23,119 nucleotides of DNA from the IMG/VR virus record IMGVR_UViG_3300042691_013768, positions 1-23,119 of that record; one strand, written 5' to 3'. Made by a program: the position numbers and the translations under genes. The notes under the pieces were generated by a model. It did not search any database. It was not told where the DNA came from and was given only the letters and a program-made list of their open reading frames with translations. Source of the stretch: a virus. Shown in pieces: positions 5,143 through 17,601 of this stretch (positions are counted from its first letter, which is position 1; each line of letters opens with the position of its first letter).

Positions 5143-6198
5143 TTATTCAACAGTCTTTATCTTCTGTGACGGCAGAGCAATACCCCTAGCCAACAAGTCT
5201 TGCTGTGCAGGGGTTAAATTCTTCGCGTCTACAGTTGTTTTGTCTACACGGTTAATCGTTTTTGGTTGACCGTTGTAGACCTCTTTGACCACCTTCTTTT
5301 CTACGCTTGCCGAAAGTGACTTGGCTATTTGAACTCCGAGATCCCCAGACTGAACCTTATGAATGAGGATTTGGTTCTCTAACCAGCTTCTAACCGCTTG
5401 CTTTCCTTCTTTAGTGGTCGTATCAAATGCTTGACCCAAGTAGCCTGCATACTGCGACTTCAAAATCGAATCGATCTCTTCGTTTGAAACTTTTAACGAA
5501 ACTTCTGATTCGCCGAATTTGTAGGGGACATCTTTTAACTGCTTGGCATAGGACTCTGCCTCGGCAAGTGCTATTGTCTGTCTTTCCGCAATCTGCTTTT
5601 GAGTTTGGCTCTTTAGCTCTTTTGCAAAGGTAAAAGGATTTTTAACAGTTTCAACATCTTTCTTAGTCTTTTCAATTATTTCTATAGCATCTATAGCGTC
5701 AGACTTTAAAAGAGCTGTGGCGTAATAATCTCCGTCACCTAAGTTATACTTTTCACGAATGGCCTCCTCAATAGTGGATTGGCCTAAACGCTTGAATTTG
5801 TCTGGGTTCTTTACCGCCTCGGCAATGACAAGAGCCTTGAGAGGATCTTCCATTAAGGAGTCCGGGTTTGAAGAAACAATTTGATTGGCGATTGAAGGAT
5901 TGATGCCCTTTTTGCCAAAGGAAACGAGTGTACGCGCCTCTTCGTTTCCTCCGAACGGATCGTCCGCTTCTTGTAACAAAGAAAGGCCTTCATTAATCTC
6001 AGCCTCCTTACTTACAATATAAGAAGCGCGTTCCTTGTAACTTCTCAGTTCTTCGAACTCGTTCTTAAAGGATTCTTCGTTTTCGTAACCATAAGCAGCA
6101 AACCAAGGAATGTTCTCTTGATTAACCTGTTCATTTTCTTGTTCGTTAACTTGTTCGTTAACTTGTTCGTTTTGATTTTCTAATTCGTTGTTTTCCAT
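5143..6198 (-). CDS. Scaffolding-like protein with acidic N-terminal repeats
   Basis: The 351-aa protein lies between portal and capsid genes, the usual scaffold position. Residues 1-30 are almost only N, E, Q and V, built from the tetrapeptide NEQV repeated with small changes, and are probably disordered. Residues 40-300 are highly charged and predicted helical, with many K, E, Q and A, as expected for a capsid scaffold. The C-terminus is Lys-rich (KKVVKEVYNGQPKTINRVDKT), which could bind the capsid shell. No protease catalytic motif is visible, so I favour scaffold over a protease-scaffold fusion. It starts five bases after the portal stop and ends 18 bases before the capsid start. Confidence 0.65.
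   Translation of the reverse strand: MENNELENQNEQVNEQVNEQENEQVNQENIPWFAAYGYENEESFKNEFEELRSYKERASYIVSKEAEINEGLSLLQEADDPFGGNEEARTLVSFGKKGINPSIANQIVSSNPDSLMEDPLKALVIAEAVKNPDKFKRLGQSTIEEAIREKYNLGDGDYYATALLKSDAIDAIEIIEKTKKDVETVKNPFTFAKELKSQTQKQIAERQTIALAEAESYAKQLKDVPYKFGESEVSLKVSNEEIDSILKSQYAGYLGQAFDTTTKEGKQAVRSWLENQILIHKVQSGDLGVQIAKSLSASVEKKVVKEVYNGQPKTINRVDKTTVDAKNLTPAQQDLLARGIALPSQKIKTVE
6139..6174 (-). repeat. 12-base tandem repeat in the scaffold-like gene
   Basis: TTGTTCGTTAAC occurs at 6139-6150 and 6151-6162, with a partial third copy at 6163-6170. In the protein this gives the NEQV repeats near the N-terminus. Copy number could vary by slippage. Confidence 0.75.
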
Positions 6199-8664: not shown

Positions 8665-11127
8665 TCAATCTATTTCAAAAATTGAGAACCCTCCTTGCAC
8701 CTCTATCGGTTGGTAAACTTCTTTGTAAAGGTCTGGCATCCGGCTCTTTATAGCCCTCATGCACCACCCTGTAGCGGCACACAAGTCATGGTTTGTTAAG
8801 TCGTCAATACCTCTCATCTGACTCCACTCCTCGACTATCTCCCACATCTTGACGTACTTGACGTTGTTGTTAAAGAAGGTCATGATGTCTCCAGCCATTT
8901 CGTTCTTTTCGGCCTCTCCCGCCCAAACGCCTGGTCTTGAGTCCTGCTTTCCGTCCGAGCCAAGATCCTTCAGTAGATATCCATCAAACCCATTGTCCCT
9001 AAAGTATTCAACAAGGGCTTCTCCGTCGGGCCACTCTGGGTAGACGTATGCCCCAAGGAATACAGCAGCCTTCAACCACTCCTCGTGGTACTCAGCCTTG
9101 TCCTCTGTTTGGCGATTGTATATCAAAACCCAGTCGTTACTTACCCACTCGCTTCTAGGCTTAGTATCGGGATCTACCTGACTATCCCTTTTGTAGAACA
9201 CAGCAGCAGCCGCGTTTGACTTCTTTTTACCTACAGTGTTTCGCTTGTGGAACTTTACCGGGTCACAGCAAAGGAAGAACTTATTCATTACTGACGGATC
9301 AGGAGCGTAAATAGGCCCTCTTGTCTTTGGTGGAATATAACCCTCTTCCGCTGTAACAACTGTCTTCCTGTTACGCATCTCGTTTGGAGGAAGGTAACTC
9401 ATGGTCCAACTTCCTTTAGGATCGTTCTCCACATAAACATCTCCACCAAACTTATCCCCCATCCACTTGAAGTTAATCTTTGTTGTGATAGGGGTGCGAG
9501 AAAACTTGAGTTCGGATATACGGTCACGCATCTTCTCAATAGGCATGCCCATGTCCTTTGGAATTACTGCGAACGCCTGCTTCCAACTCATTGGGAAGTT
9601 CTGCTGTAACTTAATCAGCTTCTGCCACTCGCGCTTACGCTCGAAGTAGTCTGCCTGGTTTAACAGATACGACTTGGCTCCCTTGGTTATCCACTTACCC
9701 TCGTTGGACATTACAGGTTCCTTAGGGTCGTCGATAATACTTGCACCATACTCGTCAATATACCCCTCAACCGCATAATAACCGGGCAAGAAGAAGTTAA
9801 TGAGTCCTGACGGAGTTGTTCCGTTCTCGTTTCGGTCTGAGAAGTGCGAGTCGTTGGCAATGTCAAAGAACTGCGCTCCACCCCCTGTGTCCATGTCGCC
9901 TACTGTAGACGGCATGATGCAGAACCCTCGGATATTCTCCCCGCGCTCGATGGCGGGTTTCATCGTGTTGTACCACCACGTCGGGATGTTTTGGTCAGCC
10001 GCCTTCGCGTCCGTTTTCTTCGCCGGTTCGTCACGGTAAACAAAAGCGATTTCCGCTTCCCCATCCGCTGCTTTTTCCGTCGACGGGAGCGGCGTGATGA
10101 AACACTCCATTTGTTCTGGCACGATTCCCGCCCTTGCTGCTGATGCGATTGCTCCTTCATATTGAAAACGCAAACCCTCCTTTGCCTCTATCCGTCCCCT
10201 GTAATAGGGCCGGAAGAAGAAAGGGAGCTTGCTTACAGGTGTTTGAATTTGCTTGATGAATATCTTGTTGACCGCCTGGTCCTCGTTCATCGCCTGGATG
10301 ATGAAGGTTTGGTCGGGCATGTTGAGTGTTCCCCACGTACAGAAGCAACAAGCAATAGCTGTTTTGGCTATACGGCGCCCGGAAACAAAGTTAATCCCAT
10401 GCACCGTCCGCTTCCCCTTCTTTACCGTTATGTTGACGTTCGGTTCCATAAAATACTCCACACCCATCTCGTTCATTTCGTCAACCACGTTCTTGACGTC
10501 TTGGTTTGAGTACTTTGTTTTTACCGTTCCCTCTTCCCGATATATTACCTTGTGCTTGTAAAACGCGTCTTCTGTAGAGTAGGCGTACATGAACAGGTGG
10601 AACATCTTCCTTTGGTAGTCTCTGTAGTCTGGCCTGTTGTTGTTCTTTCCAAAGTTCTTTACTGTCCAGAAGTTTAAGAAGAAGTAATTTGCTCCGTTGA
10701 TGTAGGTAGGTTTCCCTTTAATGAAACACCAGTACCCGACGTATCTGCGCTTGATTTGGAGCTTGATCCATTCAATCTCCATGGCGTAGTACTTCTGGTT
10801 TGACTCAACCTCTTCATAGATGTCCTCAAGCCTTACGTCACCAACCTCCTTGTACTTGGACTTGTTGGTTGCGTGTTTCTTATTGAACACAACCTCGTAG
10901 ATAATCTTTATCTTCTCGGGAACCTCCTGATAAGGAAACTTTTGTTCCCTTGGGTCTAAGCCGTAACCGTCAACGTATGTGAACGCTTCCTCTCTTGTGA
11001 CCTCGCGCTTTAGGTGATGGGAGTACCACTCCTCAAGGCGCGGTAGTGGGATTCGGATTGTATCCAACTCGTCATCGTCCTCGTGGAACGAAACAAACTT
11101 ATCTTCCTCATCGTATTCGTACTTCAT
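8665..11127 (-). CDS. terL: Terminase large subunit
   Basis: This is the packaging motor that pumps DNA into the prohead and cuts concatemers. Visible motifs in order: a Walker A-like loop SGRRIAKT at 249-256; a Walker B-like strand ending in acidic residues, IAFVYRDE at 360-367; a likely coupling segment GFCIMPSTVGD at 401-411; and an RNase H-like nuclease domain starting with FFLCCDPVKF (D622) and ending with the acidic DDLTNHDLCAATGWC near 775-789. The Walker A loop has Ala-Lys-Thr where Gly-Lys-Thr is usual, but the lysine is kept. At 820 residues it is longer than most large terminases; about 160 extra N-terminal residues precede the motor. The start codon is preceded by a copy of the sequence that ends the upstream gene (see repeat at 11126-11151). 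Confidence 0.88.
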   Translation of the reverse strand: MKYEYDEEDKFVSFHEDDDELDTIRIPLPRLEEWYSHHLKREVTREEAFTYVDGYGLDPREQKFPYQEVPEKIKIIYEVVFNKKHATNKSKYKEVGDVRLEDIYEEVESNQKYYAMEIEWIKLQIKRRYVGYWCFIKGKPTYINGANYFFLNFWTVKNFGKNNNRPDYRDYQRKMFHLFMYAYSTEDAFYKHKVIYREEGTVKTKYSNQDVKNVVDEMNEMGVEYFMEPNVNITVKKGKRTVHGINFVSGRRIAKTAIACCFCTWGTLNMPDQTFIIQAMNEDQAVNKIFIKQIQTPVSKLPFFFRPYYRGRIEAKEGLRFQYEGAIASAARAGIVPEQMECFITPLPSTEKAADGEAEIAFVYRDEPAKKTDAKAADQNIPTWWYNTMKPAIERGENIRGFCIMPSTVGDMDTGGGAQFFDIANDSHFSDRNENGTTPSGLINFFLPGYYAVEGYIDEYGASIIDDPKEPVMSNEGKWITKGAKSYLLNQADYFERKREWQKLIKLQQNFPMSWKQAFAVIPKDMGMPIEKMRDRISELKFSRTPITTKINFKWMGDKFGGDVYVENDPKGSWTMSYLPPNEMRNRKTVVTAEEGYIPPKTRGPIYAPDPSVMNKFFLCCDPVKFHKRNTVGKKKSNAAAAVFYKRDSQVDPDTKPRSEWVSNDWVLIYNRQTEDKAEYHEEWLKAAVFLGAYVYPEWPDGEALVEYFRDNGFDGYLLKDLGSDGKQDSRPGVWAGEAEKNEMAGDIMTFFNNNVKYVKMWEIVEEWSQMRGIDDLTNHDLCAATGWCMRAIKSRMPDLYKEVYQPIEVQGGFSIFEID

Positions 11128-13401: not shown

Positions 13402-13593
13402 ATGTTTATCGTTTCAATCATATTAGTTATATGCTGCCTTACGTTCATGATCAAAAACTCAATATATGGCTGTGGTAAAAGATGTTACAAGACTCGTAAA
13501 GAGGCTCAAGAGCATTGCGATTATGACCAACAGGTTTATATGTGTTGGGAGTGTGAAACCTGGCATATAAAAAATAATGAAGAAAATCCTTGA
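13402..13593 (+). CDS. Membrane-anchored zinc-ribbon protein (63 aa)
   Basis: Residues 2-17 form a hydrophobic segment (FIVSIILVICCLTFMI) likely to be a membrane anchor. The rest carries a small zinc-ribbon pattern: C24-x3-C28, then C48-x2-C51 and H55 in YMCWECETWHI, with KTRKEAQEHC between. A tyrosine, CxxC and WH ending is familiar from small phage zinc-ribbon proteins. Zinc binding and any nucleic acid or protein target are inference. It is the first gene of the rightward operon and its ATG falls at the predicted transcription start. If leaderless initiation does not occur, the ATG at 13447 (MIKNSIYG) would give a 48-aa version without the anchor. Its stop codon overlaps the promoter of the structured RNA. 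Confidence 0.6.
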   Translation: MFIVSIILVICCLTFMIKNSIYGCGKRCYKTRKEAQEHCDYDQQVYMCWECETWHIKNNEENP

Positions 13594-13620
13594 CAACCTC
13601 GCGTGGTTGTTTTATGTTTG
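13590..13620 (+). promoter_or_regulatory. Promoter with a palindromic spacer, driving the structured RNA
   Basis: TTG (13590-13592), 20 bases, TATGTTTG (13613-13620) matches the Bacteroidota promoter. The spacer contains ACAACCTCGCGTGGTTGT (13593-13610), an 18-base palindrome broken at one symmetrical pair, placed exactly between the two promoter elements where a dimeric repressor could block polymerase. The expected transcription start is near 13625. Confidence 0.7.
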
Positions 13621-13624
13621 CCAC

Positions 13625-13728
13625 ATATTTCACTCCTCGTTTGCTAACGAACCACAGTAAACGAGGATTGGATAAGTTAATAACTTACCAATTAAAAGCT
13701 CGCAAAGTGGTTCTTGCGAGCTTTTTTT
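13625..13728 (+). ncRNA. Predicted structured RNA, three hairpins with loop-loop pairing
   Basis: Three hairpins follow one another between the promoter and the terminator. Hairpin 1 pairs 13634-13642 with 13659-13667 (nine pairs) around a 16-base loop. Hairpin 2 pairs ATTGG (13667-13671) and TAAGTT (13673-13678) with AACTTA and CCAAT (13682-13692), a three-base loop and one bulged A; it shares base 13667 with hairpin 1. Hairpin 3 pairs 13694-13705 with 13714-13725 (12 pairs) and ends in a run of T. Loop 1 contains GAACCAC (13649-13655), and loop 3 is AGTGGTTC, whose last seven bases (13707-13713) are the exact complement. A kissing contact is therefore possible. It may be a stand-alone small RNA or a leader that controls the initiator gene starting at 13734. 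No known family recognised; it is not a tRNA. Confidence 0.6.
13694..13728 (+). terminator. Intrinsic terminator before the initiator gene
   Basis: A perfect 12-pair stem (AAAAGCTCGCAA with TTGCGAGCTTTT), an eight-base loop and seven consecutive T residues. It ends five bases before the initiator ATG, so the replication genes need read-through, antitermination or incomplete termination. Confidence 0.85.
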
Positions 13729-13733
13729 ATTTT

Positions 13734-14390
13734 ATGAATACAGGACAAATAGTAAAAACCAGGAACGTGCCATTCGCGATGGTTCCTACAGAATTTCTTA
13801 GGGACAAGTCCGTAAGTCTAAAGGCAAAGGGATTGCTGTCTTTCTTATTATCATTACCTCCCGACTGGGTGATATACAAGAGTAAGTTGACTGACTATTT
13901 TTTAGACGGAAAGGACTCAATATCAAGCGCTTGGGACGAGTTAGAGGTGTTGGGATACATACACTCAGTGCGAATTATTGGGGGTGACGGACTATCAAGG
14001 GGGTTTAACTACATCGTGTACTACGAGCCAACGGAAGTCGGTTTACCGGAAAGCGGTTTAACGGAAAGCGGAAAACCCGATATCCGAAAACCCGCCACTA
14101 TATATATAGATAATACAAAAAAAGAAATAACATATAAATACTCTTTCGAGCAGTTTTGGTTGGAGTACGACAAAAAGGTAGACAAGAAACAAACCTTAAC
14201 TGTTTGGAATAAACTATCTGCTGAGGACCGAATACTTGCTGTAGAAGGCATGGGTAACCACAAATCGGGTCGCGAGCGCAAATACTGGAAGGACCCGGTT
14301 CGTTATCTTCGCGACAGGAGATGGGAAGACGAAACACAAACGAAAACAATAAAACAAACACCTATTCAAGACGATGGCAACAAATGGTAA
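13734..14390 (+). CDS. Replication initiator, lambda O-like organisation (218 aa)
   Basis: The N-terminal part looks like a winged helix: SLKAKGLLSFLLSLPPDWVIYKSKLTDYF, then DSISSAWDELEVLGYIHSVRI, as in phage replication proteins that bind origin DNA. A linker with five-residue repeats (about residues 99-125, ESGLT, ESGKP) follows. The C-terminal part, FWLEYDKKVDKKQTLTVWNKLS to KDPVRYLRDRRWED, resembles the helicase-loader end of O- and DnaT-like proteins, where a tract ending in L-x-x-R-R-W-E-D is common. Its gene carries iteron-like repeats at the linker and an A/T-rich stretch after them, as lambda O does. I chose the ATG at 13734 because an upstream in-frame start at 13590 would run through promoter, RNA and terminator. 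It overlaps the primase-helicase gene by 17 bases. Confidence 0.7.
   Translation: MNTGQIVKTRNVPFAMVPTEFLRDKSVSLKAKGLLSFLLSLPPDWVIYKSKLTDYFLDGKDSISSAWDELEVLGYIHSVRIIGGDGLSRGFNYIVYYEPTEVGLPESGLTESGKPDIRKPATIYIDNTKKEITYKYSFEQFWLEYDKKVDKKQTLTVWNKLSAEDRILAVEGMGNHKSGRERKYWKDPVRYLRDRRWEDETQTKTIKQTPIQDDGNKW
14029..14145 (+). other. Candidate replication origin inside the initiator gene
   Basis: Repeats with a 15-base period occupy 14031-14094. Two near-identical units are GGTTTACCGGAAAGC (14040-14054) and GGTTTAACGGAAAGC (14055-14069), 14 of 15 bases the same. An earlier partial copy is ACGGAAGTCGGTTT (14031-14044), and the later pair shares GAAAACCCG at 14071-14079 and 14086-14094. An A/T-rich tract (14097-14145, with TATATATATAGATAATAC) follows, suited to DNA melting. 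Iterons followed by an A/T-rich region inside an initiator gene is the lambda ori arrangement. The repeats also encode a five-residue protein repeat, so they could be only a linker. Confidence 0.45.
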
Positions 14391-16311
14391 AATCTCAATC
14401 TACAAAGACTTCAATGACCTGCAAGGACACGCAATTACTGTGTTGGGCGCACTTGAACGAATTCGGACTGGAAAGTCAAAGGAACTCGTTGAGAAGGCGA
14501 GGGAAGCCAAGACTAAAAAGGAGGCTGACGAACTAAAAAAGAAACTTCCAGCGGTCTGTTTCAGCGGTCTTTTTAACAAACGTAAGGACTCAGAACTCGT
14601 AGAACACTCCGGGTATATCGTACTTGATTTCGATAATGTGACAAATATTGCCCAAAAAAGAAATGAATTAATAGCAATAAGCTATATCAAAGCTGTTTGG
14701 GTGTCGCCGTCTGGCAAGGGATTGAAGGCTTTGGTCGAAATTGAATGGAAAAGCAAGCATAAAGAGCATTTTGATGCCTTAATGAATGATTTCCCGGACA
14801 TTGACAAGACAGGACGGAATGTTTCTCGTTTATGTTTTGAGTCTTACGATCCTCAAATTTACTACAAGGCTGAAGCAGAGGTTTTCTCAAAACTGCCTGT
14901 AAAGAAGGAGGATAAGAGGTTGCCCAAACAGACAACTACCGAGACCATAAACGACGACGATAAGATATTCCAAAATCTTTTGACTTGGATGACGTCCAAG
15001 GGGGACGCATTTAGAGAGGGAGAAAGGAACCACTTCGTTTTCAAACTAGCTGCTAGTTGTTGCAGGTTTGGGATGCTTGAGGAGACGTGCTACAGCATGA
15101 TGATGACCTACGTTGTCCCCGACGCAAGCTTCAGTCAGATGGAATGTCGCCAGGCAATTCGTAGCGCGTACAGGGCCAATATGAACCAATGGAATACCGC
15201 TGAGTTCACCAAGGACCAGTTGGTTAGTAAGGCTAACCGACAGGAGGTTGACATCGTAATCACCGCAGAAGATGCGGCGAATATTGCGGCGAATGACGTA
15301 ATTTATGCGGAGGAAGTCATGGAACAAGCGTCCGACATTTACCTGCATGGATACAGGGCTGCTCAACCACTAGGAGTCCCACTACTTGACAAACACTTCA
15401 AGAGGGTGAAGGGAGACTTGACGATTGTGTCCGGGATAGGAAACTATGGTAAGTCATCGTTCATGAAGTGGGAGATGGTGTTTCGAATCGTGAAGTTTGG
15501 AGAAAAAGTTGCCATTTTCACGCCTGAAGAATTACCAGCAGAGCAGTTCTACCATGACCTTGTGGAGATCTACTTTGGGAAAGACTGTACTCCAAATAAT
15601 CCGAACCGTCCGCCATACGATATGTACATGAAGGTGTACAAGATGATTGGGGAACACATCTTTATGGTTTACCCCAAGAGTGTAAGCCCTACCCCCGAAT
15701 ACGTCAAGGAGGTATTCCTTACTCTCATCGTCAAACACGGAGTGGAGCGAGTTATCATCGACCCGTTCAACCAGATGTCAAACGATTACGCCAAGGGTGG
15801 AGGACGAAGCGACAAGTACCTTGAAACCTTCTTGTCCGACTGCACACGATTTGCTCGGAAGAACAACGTGTACTTCGACATCGTGGTCCACCCGCACAAG
15901 ATGAGGAAGGGTGACGATGGAAACTATCCATGCCCGGAGGTTTTCGACTTAGCAGATGGGGCGATGTGGAACAACAAGGCCGACAACATCCTAATATACC
16001 ATCGTCCGTTCGCTCAGACGGCCCCAGAAAGCCCTATCTGTGAGTTCCATAGTAAGAAGATCCGCCGACAAAAGATCGTGGGTATAAAGGGCTTCTTTGA
16101 GTTCCAGCTACAGAGGAACACTCGGAGGTTCACGTTTGACGGAGTAGACTATCTTCAGCAGGCTATTGACGGGAAGTATGTACAGGCCCAGATTGAGGAA
16201 CCAAAGCCATCGGTCATCAAGCCGAATAGAAGCTGGACGGATTCAAGGGACGCCAAGGAGTGGGACGAAGATGTTCAGCACCCTAACGGGTACAAGGAGG
16301 CTTGGGAATAA
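14374..16311 (+). CDS. Primase-helicase fusion (645 aa)
   Basis: This protein would make primers and unwind DNA at the phage fork. The N-terminal third resembles archaeo-eukaryotic-type primases of the BT4734/VirE-N kind: YIVLDFDN with D85 and D87 as metal ligands, VSPSGKGLKALVEI at 110-123, H132, and TGRNVSRLCF at 146-155. Residues 213-275 look like a primase C-terminal helical domain. The C-terminal half is a RecA-like DnaB-type helicase: Walker A SGIGNYGKSS at 353-362, Walker B VIIDPFNQM at 460-468, HPHK at 506-509, DNILIYHR at 537-544 and a basic KKIRRQK near 561-567 as a likely arginine finger. It overlaps the initiator gene by 17 bases, supporting joint function. Domain calls are by eye. 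Confidence 0.75.
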   Translation: MATNGKISIYKDFNDLQGHAITVLGALERIRTGKSKELVEKAREAKTKKEADELKKKLPAVCFSGLFNKRKDSELVEHSGYIVLDFDNVTNIAQKRNELIAISYIKAVWVSPSGKGLKALVEIEWKSKHKEHFDALMNDFPDIDKTGRNVSRLCFESYDPQIYYKAEAEVFSKLPVKKEDKRLPKQTTTETINDDDKIFQNLLTWMTSKGDAFREGERNHFVFKLAASCCRFGMLEETCYSMMMTYVVPDASFSQMECRQAIRSAYRANMNQWNTAEFTKDQLVSKANRQEVDIVITAEDAANIAANDVIYAEEVMEQASDIYLHGYRAAQPLGVPLLDKHFKRVKGDLTIVSGIGNYGKSSFMKWEMVFRIVKFGEKVAIFTPEELPAEQFYHDLVEIYFGKDCTPNNPNRPPYDMYMKVYKMIGEHIFMVYPKSVSPTPEYVKEVFLTLIVKHGVERVIIDPFNQMSNDYAKGGGRSDKYLETFLSDCTRFARKNNVYFDIVVHPHKMRKGDDGNYPCPEVFDLADGAMWNNKADNILIYHRPFAQTAPESPICEFHSKKIRRQKIVGIKGFFEFQLQRNTRRFTFDGVDYLQQAIDGKYVQAQIEEPKPSVIKPNRSWTDSRDAKEWDEDVQHPNGYKEAWE

Positions 16312-17060: not shown

Positions 17061-17104
17061 AGTCGTGGCGGGGGATAAACAGAGGCAAACCCGCCACGGC
17101 TTTA
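17061..17104 (+). terminator. Long hairpin after the SSB-like gene (terminator or attenuator)
   Basis: AGTCGTGGCGGG (17061-17072) pairs with CCCGCCACGGCTT (17090-17102) through about 12 pairs, including G-U pairs, around a 17-base loop. Only TTT follows, so as an intrinsic terminator it is weak. It may reduce transcription into the DnaA-like gene or protect the 3' end of the SSB message. Confidence 0.45.
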
Positions 17105-17115
17105 AACAAACGAAC

Positions 17116-17601
17116 ATGAGATACACATTCAAAGACCTAGTAGAAATAGTTCCGTCACAGCGACGGAAAGAATTTACAAAAATTTACGAATACCTCCACA
17201 AAATGGAAGACCCACAAGAGAACACAATTCTTGAAAAGGTTAGCAGACATTTTGAGGTTCCGGTTGCAGACATCAAGAGTAGCAAAAGATTTGCAGACAT
17301 TGTGTTGGCAAGACAGGTTTATATGACAGCAGTAAAGGTATGTTCAACAAAAAGCCTTGCTGAGGTTGCTAGAACCGTGAACAAGGATCACGCAACAGTG
17401 TGTCACGCACTTAAAACGGTTAAGGGTGACTATTCATTTAATGCTGTACGCAGGAATAAAATACGCCATTTCATTGCCGACCTAGACCAAGCCAAACAAG
17501 AACTTTTATTAGACTTTTTCAATGAACGGAATCCCGATATACTTGCCGCCTACACCGTCAGACCAGAGCGAGTTACAGCACCTTCGGAGTCTGAGGCATA
17601 A
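17116..17601 (+). CDS. Solo DnaA DNA-binding domain protein (161 aa)
   Basis: The core IKSSKRFADIVLARQVYMTAVKVC followed by KSLAEVARTVNKDHATVCHALKTVKGD matches the C-terminal DNA-binding domain of DnaA: a helix with a conserved arginine, then SL-x-x-(I/V)-(A/G) and the signature DHATVCHA (usual form DHTTVLHA). No AAA+ ATPase part is present, so it is not a full initiator. It could bind DnaA boxes as a competitor or as a phage regulator. I chose the ATG at 17116, with an A-rich leader. A GTG at 17065 would lie inside the hairpin and add 17 residues of poor quality. The last 80 bases overlap the next gene in another frame. Confidence 0.7.
   Translation: MRYTFKDLVEIVPSQRRKEFTKIYEYLHKMEDPQENTILEKVSRHFEVPVADIKSSKRFADIVLARQVYMTAVKVCSTKSLAEVARTVNKDHATVCHALKTVKGDYSFNAVRRNKIRHFIADLDQAKQELLLDFFNERNPDILAAYTVRPERVTAPSESEA

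Follow-up and report, generated by a model that had tools for sequence, protein, structure and literature searches.

A putative replication origin inside the initiator gene of an uncultivated phage, behind a conserved leader RNA

The 23,119-base virus record analysed here (the whole stretch of DNA, hereafter the window) carries tandem repeats and an adjoining A/T-rich tract inside the gene for a replication initiator. We conclude from sequence comparison that this element is very probably a phage replication origin embedded in its own initiator gene, of the kind represented by lambda O, SPP1 G38P and 80-alpha ORF20. A lambda-like origin within the initiator gene had been predicted from the window alone; it is supported by a DNA dyad kept in three reading frames, by depletion of change at synonymous sites, and by replacement of the DNA-binding domain together with the repeats. 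The N-terminal winged-helix domain of the initiator would bind the 15-bp iterons arrayed in tandem within the initiator's coding sequence, and this binding would strain the A/T-rich tract just 3' of the iterons, leading to melting. The C-terminal domain would help to bring the primase-helicase, the product of the following gene, onto the opened strands, and the upstream leader RNA, whose terminator lies just ahead of the ATG, probably governs the amount of initiator and the transcription that crosses the origin. Binding of the iterons by the initiator's own N-terminus is predicted with high confidence; a step in which the C-terminus itself recruits the neighbouring primase-helicase is putative, and we consider the case for it evenly balanced. 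The reading would pinpoint an embedded origin in one group of freshwater Bacteroidota phages that have not been cultivated.

The features of the gene and its neighbour are as follows.

13734..14390 (+): replication initiator gene, ATG at 13734, 218 amino acids (phrog_270 and tblastn matches)
13755..14023 (+): winged-helix-like N-terminal domain for DNA binding, residues ~8-97 (HTH_36 in relatives; AlphaFold2)
14030..14089 (+): four 15-bp iterons in the linker, the fourth degenerate (repeat calls; DNA-level constraint in relatives)
about 14098..14146 (+): A/T-rich tract 3' of the iterons, candidate unwinding element (A+T content; synonymous constraint)
14145..14333 (+): C-terminal domain, residues ~138-200 (retained in relatives whose N-terminal module has been swapped)
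14374..16311 (+): primase-helicase of the next gene, 645 amino acids (N-terminal domain BT4734-like, then PriCT_1 and a DnaB-like part)

Judging from the open reading frames of the window, leftward genes run across ~0.7-13.3 kb and rightward genes occupy most of 13.7-21.7 kb. The leftward gene at 8665-11127 encodes a terminase with relatives in Flavobacterium, Cellulophaga, Tenacibaculum and Maribacter phages, and a Bacteroidota host is therefore likely. The primase-helicase matches PF08800 (6e-20), PriCT_1 (0.0013) and the DnaB-like phrog_19 (8e-11). Near the start of its gene lies a 13-bp tandem pair (CAGCGGTCTGTTT, 14549-14574), with a period that is not a multiple of three. Another tandem repeat, of 12 bp in about four copies at 6122-6171, encodes NEQV repeats that form the N-terminus of the product of the leftward gene 5143-6198.

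Among PHROGs, the initiator matches phrog_270, 'replication initiation protein' (1e-20), phrog_4707 (2e-15), phrog_186 and others; no lambda O-like PHROG is among these matches, and by sequence the protein is not of the lambda O family. Its N-terminal half is homologous by tblastn to TP901-1 Rep and to numerous replication proteins of Staphylococcus phages, such that the N-terminal domain places it in that homology group (E 5e-15 to ~1e-16). The winged-helix start that had been proposed for the protein holds up: HTH_36 is weak and sub-threshold in the window protein (E 0.032) and is matched by 30 of 45 aligned relatives (best 5e-6), and the AlphaFold2 model (mean pLDDT 66) has an H-H-H-H-E-E order at the N-terminus with pLDDT ~67-83, so that this part of the protein looks winged-helix-like. 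The model gives the C-terminus as small and helical, with moderate confidence. A helicase-loader-like end had likewise been proposed, and here the support is divided. The C-terminal domain, which keeps 67-92% identity in phages that have a different N-terminus, matches PHROGs named 'primosomal protein' (phrog_9327, 2e-6) and 'replication initiation protein', names that are suggestive of helicase loading without proving it; it matched no Pfam or NCBIfam family. A search of solved structures with the alignment profile returned only low-complexity-like matches to RNA-binding proteins, which we set aside, and a scan of bacterial genomes gave a single weak, unrelated match to the C-terminus.

The repeats lie in the linker, at about residues 100-120. 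Tandem Repeats Finder calls a 15-bp array at 14030-14071 (2.8 copies, 85% matches, score 63), and by eye there are three units, AACGGAAGTCGGTTT (14030-44), ACCGGAAAGCGGTTT (14045-59) and AACGGAAAGCGGAAA (14060-74), followed by a degenerate fourth, ACCCGATATCCGAAA (14075-89); the 15-base linker repeats that had been noted are thus present, at positions that were right within a few bases. The repeats resemble each other beyond what the peptide requires, with a self-repeat score of 26; synonymous-codon shuffles average 8.8, and none of 500 scored as high. The window's own dyads are degenerate, with one CCG-N5-CGG that, taken alone, is not above chance. CCG-N4-CGG occurs four times in the whole window, where 2.8 are expected, and not at all in the initiator gene; therefore, only a clustering of the motif carries information. 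The A/T-rich tract that had been noted after the repeats is also real, at ~14098-14146. Over the 17 codons that precede the C-terminal domain, A+T content is 80%, compared with 70% expected from the codon use of the gene (p 0.004) and a gene mean of 58%; amino-acid composition accounts for much of this richness, and the excess is due to codon choice. Such a tract accompanies the iterons in three lineages.

Conservation of the DNA was assessed in 76 relatives fetched for comparison, which are metagenomic and not independent of one another. In three lineages, synonymous change reaches its lowest values, 0.00-0.16 of expectation, at the iterons and A/T tract, compared with mostly 0.4-1.0 in the rest of the gene. 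Across the repeats and tract as a whole, synonymous diversity is 0.09-0.13 in the window lineage, 0.08-0.37 in the WNHIVYD lineage and 0.00-0.24 in the third, and codons 119-128, at the A/T tract, show 0.09 of the expected synonymous change. Selection on the DNA of the iterons and tract beyond the protein is shown by these comparisons, and the iterons are almost certainly maintained at the DNA level.

Constrained binding sites could in principle be an operator, through which the initiator regulates its own transcription or that of the primase-helicase while the origin lies elsewhere. Intragenic binding sites can serve as roadblocks, binding differs from origin function, and the second SPP1 origin lies outside the gene (PMC6316719). 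We nevertheless consider an operator improbable, given the constrained A/T tract directly 3' of the iterons, the adjoining helicase gene, the homologous annotated origin in phage phiJB and the failure of 80-alpha ORF20 to be complemented in trans; moreover, regulation and origin function can coexist. A second alternative, which we regard as very unlikely, attributes the synonymous constraint to an RNA structure or an antisense gene over the linker. Iteron regions do fold better than shuffles (in L018, -40.4 vs -22.3 kcal/mol), but folding potential is a trivial consequence of dyad-symmetric repeats, and the regular 15/16-bp spacing, 1.5 helical turns, suits protein binding sites. Two antisense open reading frames overlap the linker (14021-14281 and 14098-14361); antisense frame lengths vary across relatives, and we rejected both frames because they are not kept.

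DNA and peptide can be told apart by the reading frame. In relatives that are 90% identical, whole 15-bp units have been gained or lost; the unit encoding GLPES is present in the window, L003 and L005 and missing from L002, L004 and L007. In the WNHIVYD-type relatives (L015-L046), CCG-N4/5-CGG dyads recur at a 16-bp period and, because 16 is not a multiple of three, fall successively in frames 2, 0, 1 and 2, encoding differing peptides. The linker peptide of these relatives is irregular in appearance (DFPISGFPDVGDFRESEN), and the underlying DNA is a regular 16-bp dyad array. Most members have three to four dyads, compared with 0.2-0.5 expected after synonymous shuffling (none of 500 shuffles as high); a subgroup, L023 and L027-L037, has two (p 0.018-0.058). 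More distant relatives with other C-termini (L067-L077) mostly have three dyads of the CCGANNTCGG type, in mixed frames. The same dyad thus occurs in different frames, and a peptide repeat is therefore no explanation. Indeed, relatives that keep the protein repeat with different DNA, through synonymous drift, had been named as evidence against an origin, and the reverse was seen: the DNA dyad is kept in three frames while the peptide changes. The possibility that the repeats are a protein feature only, a flexible low-complexity linker arising by slippage with codons repeated by recent DNA duplication, fits the predicted disorder of the linker (pLDDT <50 at residues 102-133) and the 15-bp period that keeps frame in the window's own lineage, but we reject it as having next to no chance of being correct, since it is largely refuted by the frame-cycling dyads, sister-lineage periods are 16 or 22-23 bp, the same DNA word encodes different peptides, and synonymous sites are frozen while amino acids change. 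The occurrence of one dyad in different frames, combined with synonymous freezing, provides a cheap general test of DNA iterons against peptide repeats that needs no experiments. In the Flavobacterium phage elemoF, the initiator linker (L151 8068-9006 (-)) contains TGCACAA read both as MHN and, in a second frame, as AQ, and may be a further embedded iteron array.

Binding domain and iterons also change together. L043 and L047-L064 match the window protein from residue 120 or 136 onward only. The N-terminus of L043-L064 (MHNQYSIIPASVLLSKEL...) differs from that of the window and matches lambda-O-like PHROGs (in L043, phrog_678, 4.5e-8), and the linker of these relatives has its own repeat, CATACCCCTGCTCA, with a 22-23 bp period in two frames, read as HTPAQ and YPLLK. 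DNA identity to the window is 0.76-0.96 in the 200 bp 5' of the ATG, drops to 0.26-0.58 in roughly the gene's first 400 bp, and beyond these is again mostly 0.8-0.96. The swap is bounded by the start codon and a point just past the iterons. Thus, the domain travels with its own sites, and the leader, the C-terminus and the first part of the primase-helicase stay behind. As far as sequence comparison goes, it is shown that binding domain and iterons are replaced as one and that the C-terminal domain and leader are retained. Co-inheritance of domain and iterons in L043-L064 parallels in nature what has been established for the O proteins of lambdoid phages. These natural cassettes of a domain with its iterons are ready-made pairs for tests of origin specificity.

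The original prediction had proposed GC skew as a check, with a minimum elsewhere counting against an origin at this gene. In four near-complete ~70-kb relatives, the minimum of the detrended cumulative skew lies 272-974 bp upstream of the initiator gene, and so 0.3-1.0 kb from it rather than elsewhere; however, the switch in gene orientation coincides with this minimum, and skew at third codon positions is uninformative, showing no leading-strand pattern. We therefore rejected GC skew as independent proof of an origin, since it is confounded by gene orientation; the result is compatible with the embedded origin without being evidence for it. DnaA boxes were considered as an alternative origin signal and rejected, with five one-mismatch sites in the window compared with 5.4 expected. 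The replication module also encodes a 178-aa protein (17065-17601 (+)) with the DNA-binding domain IV of DnaA (PF08299, 3e-18) and without the AAA+ part, which is kept across the phage group (also in L097-L131); the window has no cluster of DnaA boxes.

Upstream of the initiator gene lies a leader RNA with the following features.

13590..13620 (+): Bacteroidota-type promoter, TTG-N20-TATGTTTG (read directly)
13634..13667 (+): hairpin H1, with a loop at 13649-13655 (GAACCAC) that pairs with the loop of H3 (fold, covariation)
13668..13692 (+): hairpin H2 (minimum free energy fold; alignment too gappy for a covariation count)
13694..13728 (+): terminator-like hairpin H3, with a 12-bp stem and a T run, ending 5 nt before the ATG

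The promoter follows the TTG/TAnnTTTG pattern, which we take to be that of Bacteroidota promoters, and is kept in most aligned leaders, including L048, in which the RNA sequence has changed wholly. The ~105-nt leader folds far better than shuffles (z -7.8), and the H3 loop (13707-13713, GTGGTTC) is complementary to the H1 loop over 7 nt. Loop pairing of at least 7 nt is found in every leader of the three main lineages that has a recognised terminator hairpin, with variants such as GAGCAAC/GTTGCTC and GAGTCAC/GTGACTC, and GTAAGGC/GCCTTAC in the diverged L048. In an alignment of 39 leaders, 98.5% of the cells of the loop-loop helix are paired and three of its seven pairs have changed on both sides; the covariation score of the whole structure is 0.263, compared with 0.151 in shuffles and 0.04-0.08 when slid. 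A fold-based scan extended the pairing to the distant relatives L071 (GTCGCAG/CTGCGAC), L072 (GTGCAG/CTGCAC) and L076 (GTGGCTT/AAGCCAC). Three others were found by eye, L067 (GGGAAAC/GTTTCCC), L073 (GGGGAAC/GTTCCCC) and L077 (GTGGAAC/GTTCCAC), in which the pairing partner is a bulge in the terminator stem, a position that the scan does not score. The leader RNA is thus, with high confidence, a real conserved structure; that it controls initiator synthesis is a prediction that could go either way. With H2 formed, a 7-bp coaxial contact within one molecule looks strained, and multimers are therefore still a possibility.

A second RNA of the same plan occurs in several relatives. In the four ~70-kb relatives scanned, every initiator is preceded by one copy, and three of the relatives have another. 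A second RNA was looked for at the expected place in G002 and not found. The same scan found none in Markov-resampled genomes, and gave a few weak A/T-rich matches on other short loci, so some false positives are to be counted on. The second RNA is located as follows.

L085 7818-7907 (-); L091 ~5225-5304 (-); L095 15022-15122 (+); also L139-L149: second RNA, same plan as the leader RNA

It is mostly stand-alone, ~18-19 kb from the initiator and on the opposite strand, with its own promoter (TACATTTG box) and terminator and usually no ATG after it. Its loop sequences are unrelated, e.g. GTTGGAGAG/CTCTCCAAC and TCTGGCTGG/CCAGCCAGA, and five of eight pairs in the loop-loop helix are changed on both sides among eight sequences. 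Neither RNA matched Rfam at the gathering score, the sub-threshold matches being generic leaders and terminators, and scans of 50 kb each from the isolated or independent relatives elemoF, Panino and ctfjg026 revealed no kissing RNA. We consider it likely that these RNAs form an undescribed family of ~100-nt phage RNAs with their own promoter, three hairpins of which the last is a terminator, and a compensated 7-10-bp pairing of the H1 and H3 loops maintained through many unrelated sequences, several phages having two. One possibility is that they work in cis, forming a tertiary-locked attenuator ahead of the initiator and origin; alternatively, by analogy with phi29 pRNA, they may be separate molecules that self-assemble by loop pairing. 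This kissing-loop RNA ahead of the initiator is undescribed as far as our searches of Rfam and the literature show, and is directly testable.

Several known systems share the arrangement proposed here. Lambda O with ori-lambda has in common with the window the mid-gene tandem, dyad-like iterons, the adjoining A/T-rich tract and the DNA-binding N-terminus. Lambda iterons are spaced 18-19 bp apart, unlike the 15/16-bp spacing here, and the window N-terminus has no O-like PHROG match, unlike the one swapped into L043. Lambda has a P-type helicase loader next door; by contrast, no gene for a lambda P or DnaC-type loader adjoins the window initiator, the next gene being the primase-helicase. In lambda and Stx phages, the origin comprises 4 or 6 iterons and an A/T-rich tract and is situated midway through gene O (PMC7466680); the iteron number varies between these phages as the 15-bp units do among relatives of the window.

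A homologous N-terminus is found in the Lactococcus phage TP901-1, whose Rep is 38.5% identical over residues 14-133 (E 5e-15). Its rep gene, like that of the window, has linker repeats and then an A/T-rich stretch, and these repeats are needed for replication; unlike the window initiator, TP901-1 Rep has a DnaD-like annotation and no primase-helicase after it. Staphylococcus phage proteins have a homologous N-terminal domain (38.7% identity over residues 14-119, E ~1e-16), and in one of these phages, phiJB, the annotated origin lies at the same point of the gene and has 15-bp TTTTCGGAAAACGG units that resemble the window's TTTAACGGAAAGCGG. An origin within the gene, as we read it for the window, is also found in the SPP1 G38P/oriL and 80-alpha/phiJB ORF20 systems: SPP1 oriL is within gene 38 (PMC6316719), and 80-alpha ORF20 cannot be complemented in trans, which the authors took to mean that the origin is inside the gene (PMC5499656). 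The window's C-terminal domain differs from that of the SPP1 G38P, 80-alpha and phiJB initiators. So do the neighbouring genes, since phiJB has a DnaC-type loader next door (dnaC) and SPP1 has the gp39 loader and gp40 helicase, where the window has the primase-helicase. The Flavobacterium elemo phages and the Maribacter phage Panino, which have a related terminase, share with the window the order replication initiation protein, then DNA primase/helicase, but the N-termini of their initiators are unrelated or only distantly related to the window's. The window is therefore very probably of the same kind as the known embedded origins, and departs from them by having a primase-helicase in place of a neighbouring loader gene.
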